Part shown: positions 1,710-21,622 of the stretch, piece by piece | Position numbering within the stretch: position 1 is the first letter of the stretch | Layout of the letters: every line of letters starts with the position of its first letter | NCBI GenBank assembly: GCA_944384855.1 | Contig: CALWUY010000066.1 | Location: 1-64,000, forward strand | Length of the DNA stretch: 64,000 bases | Origin: an uncultured Clostridia bacterium | Lineage (GTDB): Bacteria; Bacillota; Clostridia; Oscillospirales; Acutalibacteraceae | Direction of reading: 5' to 3' | Position numbers and translations under genes: made by a program | The notes under the pieces: model-generated | Database searches by the model: none | What the model was told of the DNA's origin: nothing | The model's input: only the letters and a program-made list of their open reading frames with translations

Positions 1710-3566
1710 CTAAACATTTTTGATTTCACCGTCGGGCATAAGTGCGTAAACCTGTCCGTCAATCTCGCCCCGGACTACTTCTCCGTCTGCTATTCTCAAA
1801 TCCTTAGCATAATTCGCCAGAACATCATCAAGCAGATATTTGAAATCGCCGGTTTTGAATATACCCTGCGGGTCATTTTCAAAATCAACAGGTCCGAAAT
1901 AGGAAATAGCCATACCTTTTCCGTGCTTGCGGTAGAAAGCGCTGTAAACATCGCTCGTTTCCAAATTTTCATATTCGGTAAACTTGCGTCCTTTGGACAC
2001 CGCAATAACTTTTGCATCATCGGAAATATTGCTGTATCCCCATTCAGAAAATGTATTTTTCAGAGCGGCATACGATTTAAAAGGAATATCCTGCATAATT
2101 TCAGAAGTTGAAATTCCCTCACAATATTCGGTATCTTCAGTGATACCCAACATTTCGTTGAATTTCTTATTGCAGTTAAGCTCCAAATCCGTAACCCTGC
2201 CGACTGCAAACAGTATTCCGCCGTTTTCGACCCATTTACACAGATACTCAAGCGTAGCATTGTCGGTATATAAGTCGCACGGCAGAATAAGCAGGCTTAT
2301 ATCATCCAACGCGCCGTCAGCTATCATATTTTCATTTACAAAGCGATAATCGGTACGCTCACGGATAAATTTCGCTGTTTTACGGATTCTTTCCGGAATT
2401 CCGCCTTCCATAATTCCCACATATTTCGGCCACAGGACCGCAAACTTATTATCACTTTTACGTTCCTGTATAAGATGTATGTATTTACTGAATATCCTGG
2501 AACATTCTCCGTCCATTTCCGTATTCGGGTAAATATTTGAAAAATAAAAGAATATCTGGCGGTTTCCGTAAATCGCTGAACCTAAAATCCTTGAGCCTAT
2601 TCCCTCTTTTGTCATAGGACCTACCGGTTCAAGCCCGAGATATGCACCGTAAAGTTCACAGGCGTTATGCATATAAGCGTTGCAGTCAAAGAAATTCGAA
2701 AAGAAATTATTTCTTTCGTTTGTAAGGCGTATACCGCCGCCGTATTTGGCCGCTGTTTTTGCCTGATCGCTGAAAAGCGAGGCATGTTCAGGTGTTTCTA
2801 TGCCGCCGGTACATAAATATATCGGCGTGTCCGGAAAATGCTTGCGCGAGGTTTTCATCCAAAACTCAGCGTACTCGGTCATAGAATTACGGTACCATTC
2901 AATCAAATCAAACCATGCGGTTCTTGACGGCGCCATATGCTGAAGGAATGTGGATATTTCTCCGAATGAATTATAGTGCGAACGCCATGTCTTATTAAGG
3001 GTATCGATGTCTCCGTATTTTTCTTTTACCGCATTGCGGAAGGATTCTTTCGCGTCCTCTCCGCCGCACCACATGCCTTTATGAGAATGATAGGCTCCCG
3101 GCCAGTTTCCGTGAACCGGCATTATTGCTTCGCCGTAGTCTCCGCATATACCGGGCTGGAATGATTCGAGTATATCCATTGGCAGATAATGCTCAGCAAA
3201 CACTCCCATTACTCTGTCAACTTCATCGCGGAAATCCTGACTCCATATAGAATCTATCGGACTTTCAGTGCCGTGTTCAAGACATACCAATCCTCTTTGC
3301 TTTGCGTCATTCAGCCACCAGTCAGGAGCGGCATATCTCGGTCCCATAAGGAAAAAAGGCACAAACTTCAAACCTGCTTCTCTGAGAAGCTCGACATCCT
3401 TATCATAATAGGAAAAATCAAACTGTCCTCTGCCTTTTCCCTCAAACCTGTTCCAATGCATATAAATCTGAACAGCGGTAAAACCGTCTTCTTTTATCTT
3501 TTTAAGTATTTCCCTGATATTCGGAGCGCCGAACGGAACCCCGCAGGTTACGATTTCATGTTTCAT
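1710..3566 (-). CDS. Clan GH-A glycoside hydrolase, GH42/GH14-like
   Basis: This 618-residue protein is probably a retaining or inverting glycosidase acting on oligosaccharides in the cytoplasm; no signal peptide is seen. The N-terminal 400 residues read as a TIM barrel with the GH42-like opening pattern (IREILKKIKEDGFTAVQIYM, then HWNRFEGKG). An acidic candidate for the general acid lies in GDYGEA (about 143-148), and FRNAVKEKYGDIDTLN resembles the segment after the acid residue in GH42 enzymes. The C-terminal part (about 420-600, LLILPCD and ENGGILFAVG) resembles the amidotransferase-like trimerisation domain of GH42. Database entries for such proteins are often labelled family 14. The substrate is unknown. 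The start has a strong GGAGAGGTG site and its own promoter. It follows another glycosidase gene on the same strand. Confidence 0.75.
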   Translation of the reverse strand: MKHEIVTCGVPFGAPNIREILKKIKEDGFTAVQIYMHWNRFEGKGRGQFDFSYYDKDVELLREAGLKFVPFFLMGPRYAAPDWWLNDAKQRGLVCLEHGTESPIDSIWSQDFRDEVDRVMGVFAEHYLPMDILESFQPGICGDYGEAIMPVHGNWPGAYHSHKGMWCGGEDAKESFRNAVKEKYGDIDTLNKTWRSHYNSFGEISTFLQHMAPSRTAWFDLIEWYRNSMTEYAEFWMKTSRKHFPDTPIYLCTGGIETPEHASLFSDQAKTAAKYGGGIRLTNERNNFFSNFFDCNAYMHNACELYGAYLGLEPVGPMTKEGIGSRILGSAIYGNRQIFFYFSNIYPNTEMDGECSRIFSKYIHLIQERKSDNKFAVLWPKYVGIMEGGIPERIRKTAKFIRERTDYRFVNENMIADGALDDISLLILPCDLYTDNATLEYLCKWVENGGILFAVGRVTDLELNCNKKFNEMLGITEDTEYCEGISTSEIMQDIPFKSYAALKNTFSEWGYSNISDDAKVIAVSKGRKFTEYENLETSDVYSAFYRKHGKGMAISYFGPVDFENDPQGIFKTGDFKYLLDDVLANYAKDLRIADGEVVRGEIDGQVYALMPDGEIKNV

Positions 3567-18138: not shown

Positions 18139-18753
18139 TCATGAAAATTTCTTCTTGATGTCCTCATATACTTCAATTATCTTAAACCGCATTTCATATT
18201 TCGGTTTATTTTCGGCTATCTGTGCCGAACTCTCACTCACTGTATCTGAAAGTGACGCGTCGCCTGCCGCCGGCAGACATATTTCAGGGAAAATCACGCA
18301 CCACCAATTTTTACCCTGCGCTTTCCCCACATTTATCACAAGCGATTTATAAGTACCTGCCGGCAGAGTAAAGTCATCATACTCCCGCGTTTCAAAATAG
18401 CTGTCCTTTACAGCAGCTTCGGCTGTATACCCGAAACCGTTTTGTGATATTACTTCATTCGCGACATCTTGAATAAAGTTCAAAGATTTTTCCGCCGCAT
18501 CAACCGCTTCATCTATATTATGAGATTCAGTAAATATCTCTTCGCTGCGTGCCAGAATACCGTCCCTTATTTTAAGTTTAAGTTCCTGATCCGCCTGAGA
18601 ATCCGAATTTGCGATAATATGTAACCGCAAAACGTTAGTCCGCAGGTCTTCACACGCCGTATTAAAACTTGCAAATGACATAAATACTGCACAAATCAAT
18701 CCGCATAAAAGTGAATAATTAATAATTCTTCCAGAAATTTTATTTTTTTTCAA
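18139..18753 (-). CDS. spoIIR: Stage II sporulation protein R
   Basis: A 204-residue secreted signalling protein made in the forespore. It activates SpoIIGA, which then processes pro-sigma-E in the mother cell. A signal/anchor helix is at about 11-31. The family motif follows: LRLHIIANSDSQADQELKLKIRDG, then NFIQDVANEVISQNGFGY and DFTLPAGTYKSLVINVG with the closing GKNWWCVIFPE. The TTG start at 18753 has GGGAGG upstream. It shows that the organism sporulates or descends from spore formers. The ispE part of the upstream fusion ends 52 bases before it. Confidence 0.95.
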   Translation of the reverse strand: MKKNKISGRIINYSLLCGLICAVFMSFASFNTACEDLRTNVLRLHIIANSDSQADQELKLKIRDGILARSEEIFTESHNIDEAVDAAEKSLNFIQDVANEVISQNGFGYTAEAAVKDSYFETREYDDFTLPAGTYKSLVINVGKAQGKNWWCVIFPEICLPAAGDASLSDTVSESSAQIAENKPKYEMRFKIIEVYEDIKKKFS

Positions 18754-18805: not shown

Positions 18806-20515
18806 TTAATCACATTTTATTGCGAAATTACAGGGTTTCGCTATAAAACATTCAATATTTTCATTTTCAAGGCACCTGCAAGCCTTAACTGCTTCTCTTT
18901 TAGAGGTAAAATATGCAAACCATGTCGGTCCGCTGCCCGTCAAAGAAACATTGTCCGCAGTTTCCCTCAGCTTTTCATAAGTTTTGCTGTTTTCCCATGC
19001 CGCCGTAAACGAGTTATAAAAAAACTTTGCAGCCTTATCGTAGTTTCCCGAAGTATACGCTTTTATGAAACCGTCAGTTTCCGGCAGAACATATTTTTTA
19101 CTGTCAAGGACTGCATACATTTGCGCGGTTGAAGGCTTGCTTTCCCCTTTTGCAAGCACAAACCATCCTTTTTCAAAATTATCAAGCGGCGACAGCAGTT
19201 CCCCGGTCCCCTGCGCCCTTTGGGTTCCTCCTTCTATAAAGAACGGTACATCCGCTCCCAGTTTTGCCGCAATTTCTTTCCGCTTTTCTTCAGTTAATCC
19301 GGCGTCATAAAGTATATTTAATGCTGTGATTACCGCCGCCGCGTCCGCGCTGCCTCCGCCCATTCCCGACGCGGCAGGTATTTTCTTATAAATCCTGATT
19401 TTTGCGCCGCCATTAATTCCGGTTTCCTCAAAAAATACCTTTGCAGCCTTATAAGCGATATTTTCATTTTCTTCGAGTTTAAGCCCTCTGCATTCAACTT
19501 TGATCCTGCCCGATTTTGTTATTATCAGCCTGTCGCTCAGTGTTACCGACTGCATTACGGTATCTATATCATGATAACCGTTCTCCCGTTTGCCTGTAAC
19601 CGCAAGGGTCAGATTTATTTTGGCGTTTGCCCTGACGCTCATTCTTTTTATATTGAGAACGGCAACCGAAATCAAAACCAAAAATACACCCGCAACTCCC
19701 AAGATACTGATAGGTTCTTTATAAATCACGCTGACCAGTGTGGCTACAACCGGTTCTACAGTAGCAATAATCGGAGCGGCAGACGGACTCACTCCTTTTA
19801 ACCCCGCAGTATAAAGAATATAAGGCAGAACCGTGTTGAAAACCGCCATCAGCAGTACCGTAACAAATACCTTAGGTCCTGAGGTGAGACCATTAATCAC
19901 AGCGCCGGTATTTACAAACGGCAGAGACGATAGCGCGGCAAACAAAAAAACATAAAATGTTATAGTCAGGGTTTTGTAACCCCGCTTCAAAAGAAGCTCG
20001 CTGAATATCGTGTACAGAGCATAACCGAACCCCGTAAGCAAACCGTAAAATACAGCTTTGCCTCCCACCTTATGAGATGAGTCAAATATACCCGTTACCA
20101 AACAGCATCCTATAAAAGCAGAAATACAGGCAACAATTTTATTTAAAGTCAGCCTCTCCTTAAAAAGTATCAACGACATTATTACAACGAAAAACGGTGC
20201 GGTATAAAGCAATACCGCGGCCACCGACAAGGATGTGAGAGACATAGCGGTGTAATACGAATAATTGAAAAGCACTATGCTGAACAGCCCGGCCGATATA
20301 AAAATCCACAGATGCCGAAGTCTGATTTTAAAAAGTGATTTATCCCTGAAAAAAATCACAGCTCCGAAAAACAAGGCTGAAAATACCGCGCGGCACAGCA
20401 CAAGCTGCATTTCTTTTATATCGTTCTGTACCGTACGCACAAAAATTCCGGCCGTTCCCCAAAGCATCGCGGCCGACAAAACATAAATAAAATGTATGTT
20501 TGATTTCCTCACCAT
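18806..20515 (-). CDS. ispE: In-frame fusion: EamA transporter and IspE kinase
   Basis: One 569-residue frame encodes two complete proteins. Residues 1-291 form a ten-helix EamA (drug/metabolite) transporter, with the tandem EamA pattern (MLWGTAGIFVR near the start, LKGVSPSAAPIIATVEPVVA late). Residue 292 is a Met that opens a full IspE, 4-diphosphocytidyl-2-C-methylerythritol kinase of the MEP pathway: ANAKINLTLAVTGKRENGYH, then the ATP loop AASGMGGGSADAAA and LGADVPFF, ending at normal length (278 residues). No linker or stop lies between the halves. Before the internal ATG (19642-19640) there is only AAAAAGA, a poor ribosome site, so a true fusion is likely. The C-terminal half would face the cytoplasm. 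An assembly error that removes a stop is the main alternative. Confidence 0.88.
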   Translation of the reverse strand: MVRKSNIHFIYVLSAAMLWGTAGIFVRTVQNDIKEMQLVLCRAVFSALFFGAVIFFRDKSLFKIRLRHLWIFISAGLFSIVLFNYSYYTAMSLTSLSVAAVLLYTAPFFVVIMSLILFKERLTLNKIVACISAFIGCCLVTGIFDSSHKVGGKAVFYGLLTGFGYALYTIFSELLLKRGYKTLTITFYVFLFAALSSLPFVNTGAVINGLTSGPKVFVTVLLMAVFNTVLPYILYTAGLKGVSPSAAPIIATVEPVVATLVSVIYKEPISILGVAGVFLVLISVAVLNIKRMSVRANAKINLTLAVTGKRENGYHDIDTVMQSVTLSDRLIITKSGRIKVECRGLKLEENENIAYKAAKVFFEETGINGGAKIRIYKKIPAASGMGGGSADAAAVITALNILYDAGLTEEKRKEIAAKLGADVPFFIEGGTQRAQGTGELLSPLDNFEKGWFVLAKGESKPSTAQMYAVLDSKKYVLPETDGFIKAYTSGNYDKAAKFFYNSFTAAWENSKTYEKLRETADNVSLTGSGPTWFAYFTSKREAVKACRCLENENIECFIAKPCNFAIKCD

Positions 20516-20535
20516 AACTGAACTCCGAAAATAAA

Positions 20536-20599: not shown

Positions 20600-21622
20600 T
20601 TAATTGTTTACTCCATGATGAAAACCTGTAACCTTGCTGGTAAGCAGTTCAAACCTGAATCCCCTTGCCGCCAGACCCTCTATGATTTTAGGAAGTGCCT
20701 GTACCGTTGAGGTTTTGGATTCCGCATCATGCATAAGAACACATATCGAGTTTTTTCCGTCCGATCCTTTCAGCACATTGTTGACAATCCGCGTATAGCT
20801 TGAATGACTGCTTCCCGCATCGTCGGAATCAACGTTCCAGTCGAAATATGCATATCCCTTTTCGGATACCTCTTTGGTAAGCTGTGTCATTATTCCTCTG
20901 CAATACTTTTTGCTCACAAGATTACTGCTTCCGCCCGGAAAGCGCATTATATCAGATCTTACTCCGATAATCGAATAAACTTTATCGGATATTGACTGAA
21001 GATCTTTCATATATGCAGAAACATTTTTATAAATACCGGCATAATTATGGCTGTATGAGTGAAGTCCTATCGCATGCCCTTCATCATAAGCCTGCTTTAT
21101 GTAATTGATATTTGATGTATTGATAACAAAGAATGTGGCTTTGACATTGTATTTTTTAAGTATTTTTAATATTTCAGGCGTTCTTGATGTGGGACCGTCG
21201 TCAAAAGTCAGGTAGCACACTTTTTTCCCTGATGACGGGTTGACGGGATTCTGAGTTGACGTCTGACCGTTCTGCGCAGAATTTTCCAATGTATTCTGCG
21301 CAGAATTATTCTTTTTGGCTTTTAAAGTTTCAATCTGTTTTTTAAGACTGTCGTTTTCCTTCTGCAGTTTATCCTTTTCATTTTTTGCCGTATCAAGTTC
21401 GGATTTTATCTTTTCATTTTCAGACTTTGCTCCATCCAGTTCTTGCTGCAGTCCGGATATTTTTTCCTCATTTTGAGTTATTGTTTGTTCAGCCTGATTC
21501 ATTTCCTTTTCAACTTTTGAAATATCTTTACTTTTTTTGTAAATCGTAAATCCTGAAAATGCAAGCGCCAGTACCAGTACAGCAATAATCGCAATAAAGA
21601 TTTTATCTGCCAGTTTTCTCAT
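20600..21622 (-). CDS. Membrane-anchored polysaccharide deacetylase
   Basis: A 340-residue NodB-family esterase that should remove acetyl groups from peptidoglycan or another glycan outside the cell. A signal-anchor helix (7-29) is followed by a long coiled coil (about 34-105, KVEKEMNQAEQTITQNEEK onward) and a Ser/Asn/Gln-rich linker. The NodB domain (134-335) has TFDDGPTSRT with the catalytic Asp pair (about 140), HSYSHNY carrying the two metal His (about 187) and RFPGGSSN. The coiled coil may hold the catalytic domain away from the membrane or mediate assembly. GGGAGGTGGGA precedes the ATG. The divergent neighbour encodes a class A penicillin-binding protein, which fits a cell-wall role. 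Confidence 0.93.
   Translation of the reverse strand: MRKLADKIFIAIIAVLVLALAFSGFTIYKKSKDISKVEKEMNQAEQTITQNEEKISGLQQELDGAKSENEKIKSELDTAKNEKDKLQKENDSLKKQIETLKAKKNNSAQNTLENSAQNGQTSTQNPVNPSSGKKVCYLTFDDGPTSRTPEILKILKKYNVKATFFVINTSNINYIKQAYDEGHAIGLHSYSHNYAGIYKNVSAYMKDLQSISDKVYSIIGVRSDIMRFPGGSSNLVSKKYCRGIMTQLTKEVSEKGYAYFDWNVDSDDAGSSHSSYTRIVNNVLKGSDGKNSICVLMHDAESKTSTVQALPKIIEGLAARGFRFELLTSKVTGFHHGVNN

Follow-up and report, generated by a model that had tools for sequence, protein, structure and literature searches.

Within the window (the whole 64,000-nucleotide stretch of DNA analysed here), one uninterrupted reading frame joins an EamA-family transporter to IspE, and the same in-frame architecture is found in 10 of the 70 genus genomes, the window's own included. 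We hold it to be highly probable that eamA and ispE, an overlapping pair at a conserved locus, fused into a single frame on at least two occasions in one genus: the unfused pair would probably have been translationally coupled before the merger, the internal ribosome site and usually the ispE start codon too would have decayed, and IspE would now be made mainly or only as the cytoplasmic C-terminal domain of the transporter. The kinase would in that case be active on the inner membrane face, in a fixed 1:1 ratio with a working carrier whose own C-terminus is cytoplasmic, and the gain may lie in co-translation, stoichiometry or tethering. A housekeeping enzyme that usually moves freely in the cell would have turned into part of a membrane carrier, and the case raises a testable question, namely whether cells can organise the synthesis of isoprenoid precursors at the membrane. 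The features of the locus are collected in Table 1.

Table 1. Features of the eamA-ispE locus, with coordinates in the window
Feature	Position	Strand	Basis
Polysaccharide deacetylase (PgdA label), upstream neighbour	20600..21622	(-)	
Ribosome site cggag ahead of the EamA ATG	20523..20527	(-)	sequence reading; duplex -6.1 kcal/mol
eamA-ispE fusion gene, 569 codons plus stop	18806..20515	(-)	single open frame, family matches
EamA (DMT) transporter part, residues 1-291	19643..20515	(-)	PF00892, model, Foldseek 5i20
Last transmembrane helix, residues 271-288	19652..19705	(-)	model
Link of two residues (289-290) joining helix and kinase strand	19646..19651	(-)	model
IspE (CDP-ME kinase) part, residues 292-569	18809..19642	(-)	TIGR00154, PDB IspE matches
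Met292, ATG in frame where ispE usually starts; no ribosome site	19640..19642	(-)	
Lys299, aligned with E. coli IspE Lys10	19619..19621	(-)	alignment; K in 10/10 fusions
Asp422, aligned with E. coli IspE Asp141	19250..19252	(-)	alignment; D in 10/10 fusions
spoIIR, downstream neighbour	18139..18753	(-)	

The frame opens with an ATG, closes with a TAA and encodes 569 residues with no internal stop. Its first part matches the EamA family in two stretches (residues 10-141 and a second one; E 4e-41 against Pfam) and does not reach the cut-offs of TIGR00950 and NF050091, two specific NCBIfam models; its second part exceeds the ispE cut-off of TIGR00154 over residues 291-560 (190.7 bits vs. 138.7), keeps the glycine-rich motif and carries counterparts of E. 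coli IspE Lys10 and Asp141, which we take to be the catalytic residues. A structure model built on 100 aligned sequences, namely nine of the ten fusions (without G021) and 91 single-domain rows, has a mean pLDDT of 95.2 and a pTM of 0.88. Its fifteen helix segments up to residue 288 make up ten transmembrane helices by our grouping; the first strand of IspE starts at residue 291. By Foldseek, the transporter half resembles 5i20, which we take to be YddG, with a TM-score of 0.77 by target length, and the IspE half resembles solved IspE structures such as 4emd and 1oj4. A sequence-only reading of this DNA had described a single uninterrupted frame, a ten-helix EamA transporter over residues 1-291, a full-length IspE from Met292 attached with no linker, and a poor ribosome site at the internal ATG; each of these points is borne out, the absence of a linker to within two residues and the poor site by the lack of Shine-Dalgarno pairing in front of Met292 (+1.6 kcal/mol vs. 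-6.1 at the EamA start).

YddG-type carriers have both termini in the cytoplasm, and the positively charged loops of the fusion, judged by eye, fit the same placement; with both termini cytoplasmic, the kinase would sit on the inner membrane face almost without a link. That an enzyme of isoprenoid precursor synthesis would be tethered to a membrane carrier, as had been proposed before the structure was modelled, follows from the architecture and the predicted fold.

The other nine fusions are about 42-61% identical to that of the window (eight at 52-61%, the one in G477 at 43%) and come from public metagenome-assembled genomes whose sources include roe deer, sheep, goat, water buffalo and horse. 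In 22 of the 70 genus genomes eamA and ispE are separate neighbours that overlap by 4-41 nt, with ispE in the same relative frame to eamA in 21 of the 22 pairs, and the pairing, separate or fused, is thus present in 32 genomes. Relatives with two genes of their own, named beforehand as grounds for doubting the fusion, therefore do exist, but the separate pair looks like the ancestral state and leaves the fusion unrefuted. The two genes lie on different contigs in several genus members (e.g., G125, G034 and G029), and ispE stands without a carrier beside it in 16 genus genomes read; the 18 lone ispE loci read comprise those of these 16 genomes, all without the fusion (G022 twice), and a second ispE of G031. 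Of the 70 genomes, the 32 with the pairing were classed individually. Outside the genus, a search for EamA-IspE architectures drew on a family sample of 398 genomes, 6 of which belong to the genus, and an order sample of 394, 4 of which do; at most three candidates were scored per genome, and the best matches listed include no fusion from outside the genus. The class sample (148 genomes) and the phylum sample (149), both searched at E 1e-60, yielded none either; the four samples overlap, each contains the window's own genome, and distant fusions could be missed in all of them. Where contigs reach, the locus order is largely conserved as deacetylase, eamA, ispE, spoIIR, L31, YigZ and Dgt, the ORFs labelled L31 and Dgt beyond spoIIR being presumably these genes. 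The window's spoIIR may itself begin at a TTG, which follows a strong ribosome site (-12.0 kcal/mol).

The junction is where fused and unfused genes differ most tellingly, taking ATG, GTG or TTG as a start codon throughout. Ribosome-site pairing is present at the ispE start in all 22 unfused pairs (-4.3 to -10.6 kcal/mol) and weak or absent at the junction in all ten fusions (-3.1 to +1.6 kcal/mol); the two ranges are disjoint (Mann-Whitney p 8e-6; n = 22 and n = 10), with 10 of the 22 paired ispE starts set by eye (five to fix a late BLAST match, five three codons upstream) and the EamA starts of the fusions also chosen by eye. Eight of the ten fusions have no start codon at the ispE Met place, where GTT, ATA or TTA is found, and one is kept in the window (ATG) and in G007 (GTG). 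Such a missing codon at this exact place is not special to the fusions: CTT also stands there in five of the 22 unfused pairs (G032, G023, G030, G479 and G482), whose ispE begins three codons further upstream, at an ATG that has a ribosome site. An assembly or frameshift artefact hiding a stop between two genes, which the draft state of the window's source genome (96 contigs) and the separate genes of relatives might otherwise suggest, deserves next to no credence: the same in-frame junction stands in nine other assemblies at 43-61% identity, a conservation of the frame that neither chance nor one sequencing indel can explain, and an indel error could not produce the lost ribosome site together with the mostly lost start codon. 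Assembly error is thus rejected, and for the group of fusions the artefact reading is refuted. We consider it unlikely, too, that free or nearly free IspE is produced, whether translation starts internally or the chain is cleaved after TM10, with the long frame being near-neutral. The ATG or GTG kept at two junctions is compatible with such free IspE, as are the TTG or GTG codons that lie in frame within the last helix, at -39/-42, which have moderate SD-like pairing (-5.5 to -6.8 kcal/mol) in four of the ten fusions, the window's included, and from which a short, hydrophobic-tailed IspE could possibly be made; G457 and G031 show SD-like pairing of -4.0 elsewhere, and in G018 an ATG lies three codons upstream of the junction, the place used in the five unfused pairs, with pairing of only -1.1. 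Against it stand the disjoint pairing ranges, the absence in G477 of any in-frame ATG, GTG or TTG between -60 and +30 nt, and the link from the LN at the helix end to the kinase strand, which measures 3-8 residues and is in frame in all ten fusions. With the junction ribosome site weak or absent throughout and the start codon mostly lost, IspE is probably synthesised only as a tail of the transporter, with weaker internal starts in some fusions, and an obligate fusion is the likeliest reading; the claim of a genuine fusion polypeptide, made before relatives were compared, is strongly supported by the same junction counts and by the recurrence of the gene in ten genomes.

As to what the carrier contributes, it most likely transports some small metabolite with no relation to CDP-ME, and the fusion most likely began as a tightening of a translational coupling that already existed. 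Beyond the genus, ispE is absent from the flanks (about 1.5 kb, some shortened by contig ends) of 19 transporter homologues. A scan with two EamA peptides as queries, in which 80 of 88 matches were kept and distant fusions could be missed, showed a 42% identical homologue beside unrelated genes in Methanocorpusculum, a genus of archaea, which are not known to have the MEP pathway. Together with the 16 genus genomes in which ispE has no adjacent carrier, these observations weigh against an EamA that carries an MEP-pathway metabolite or the IspE substrate, with the fusion channelling or trapping it by vectorial phosphorylation or as an overflow valve. That reading is quite unlikely in our judgement, and it is equally doubtful that carrier and kinase form one working unit in which EamA moves an MEP metabolite or another alcohol that IspE phosphorylates. 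Both draw some support from the pairing in 32 of the 70 genomes, from a fusion that arose more than once, from the transporter-enzyme precedent of LplT-Aas (PMC11416262), and from the efflux of the MEP intermediate MEC/MEcPP reported for E. coli in PMC3487848, where the fsr pump is a preliminary candidate. If true, the working-unit reading would mean membrane-coupled control of isoprenoid precursor flux in gut bacteria, evolved at least twice. By association, the fusion also gives a first hint of what such an uncharacterised EamA carrier may be connected to.

The surroundings of the lone EamA homologues follow no pattern among ten ORFs scanned at seven loci; one of these ORFs, at L142, may be no gene at all, since its frame differs from that of the EamA match and it has no Pfam match. 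The Methanocorpusculum homologues (L139, 3001-3852; L140, 3001-3864) possibly reflect transfer between gut bacteria and archaea, and at L139 the gene is flanked on one side by an F420 hydrogenase beta-like protein and on the other by an ABC ATPase that has a CBS domain. In Ohessyouella blattaphilus (L163, 3001-4732) two EamA genes stand in tandem, the match spanning 1.7 kb.

Sequence constraint is visible in both halves of the fusion. All ten exceed the TIGR00154 cut-off and keep the predicted catalytic Lys and Asp; no other ispE was found in nine of the ten fusion genomes, the window's own among them, and ispF, the next pathway gene, was found in nine, with none found in G031, a genome 81% complete. 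Among the nine fusions without G477, mean identity is 60.1% in the EamA part vs. 53.1% in the IspE part, and the EamA part is the more alike in 33 of 36 pairs, so that the carrier does not have the appearance of a decaying passenger; invariant columns over all ten fusions number 57 in EamA and 62 in IspE. The second, unfused ispE of G031 lies on another contig (L110, G031:C36:16900-19986, 1837-2697, plus strand) and forms a long branch beside the IspE of other genera. It was possibly acquired by transfer, and the fused copy of that genome may be free to specialise.

Among the papers listed from the open-licence literature searched, none treats an EamA-IspE architecture, and the one that contains both words, IspE and EamA, deals with Pseudomonas mobile elements; the fusion is thus not described in the literature searched, both of its parts are from known families, and transporter-enzyme fusions are already known. 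With known IspE enzymes it shares the full domain over cut-off, the predicted catalytic Lys and Asp, the glycine-rich motif and the fold, but IspE is generally monofunctional according to PMC5821942, whereas here it would be the tail of a membrane protein. With EamA/DMT transporters (PF00892; 5i20) it has in common the two EamA stretches and the ten helices, and it differs from them by the enzyme at its C-terminus. The bifunctional IspDF proteins, well known from PMC5821942, PMC10663253 and PMC13001223, are likewise in-frame fusions of the MEP pathway and cover non-consecutive steps (PMC5821942, PMC13001223), but they join two enzymes, IspD and IspF, rather than EamA and IspE. According to PMC5821942, no IspD/E/F complex was found in B. 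subtilis and E. coli, and an earlier claim of IspDF-IspE association, cited there, was later disputed. The closest parallel in kind is LplT-Aas, also a transporter with a cytoplasmic-face enzyme, which PMC11416262 describes as bicistronic in many gram-negatives and apparently one ORF in certain other bacteria; Aas acts on what LplT delivers, however, a link not known for EamA and IspE, and Aas artificially fused to the LplT C-terminus disrupted LplT expression.

The history of the fusion was read from trees of 58 IspE and 55 EamA rows, from which rows with identical cores had been dropped. The IspE tree calls for at least five gains or losses of the fused label on well-supported branches. AU tests reject a shared origin of the ten fusions with either half (p 5e-45 for IspE, 5e-4 for EamA). 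Grouping the ten with four lone-ispE rows of the main clade as one clade is likewise rejected on IspE (AU p 1.6e-5), and one origin for the nine fusions without G477 plus the same four rows gives AU p 0.043 on IspE, both tests being weaker than they look because the lone rows were picked after seeing the tree; one origin for these nine fusions alone is not rejected on EamA (AU p 0.247). The nearest relatives of G477 carry a separate pair, and on these trees there are at least two fusion events, an independent one in G477 and that of the main group. Two fusions are placed differently by their two halves: G031 falls inside a fused clade on EamA (98/95) and outside it on IspE, and G018 falls inside on IspE and just outside on EamA, on branches short of full support.

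Four relatives with a lone ispE and no adjacent eamA (G239, G001, G028 and G464) are nested in the main fused clade of the IspE tree, which suggests that the fusion is dispensable. The lone ispE of G028 and G464 (L094, 2090-2929; L095, 2103-2942) carries TTA or TTG in place of the usual Met and is preceded by a short leader ending in IKR, like the carrier's tail; this non-standard Met and the leader together suggest descent from a fused ancestor by loss of the carrier part, and some relatives thus seem to have lost the transporter again. One genus would then display overlapping genes, fusion with lost start signals and apparent carrier loss as successive stages, a clean natural case of overlapping genes becoming a protein fusion. 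G022 has two ispE genes (L099 and L107), which lie on different contigs and fall in different parts of the IspE tree.
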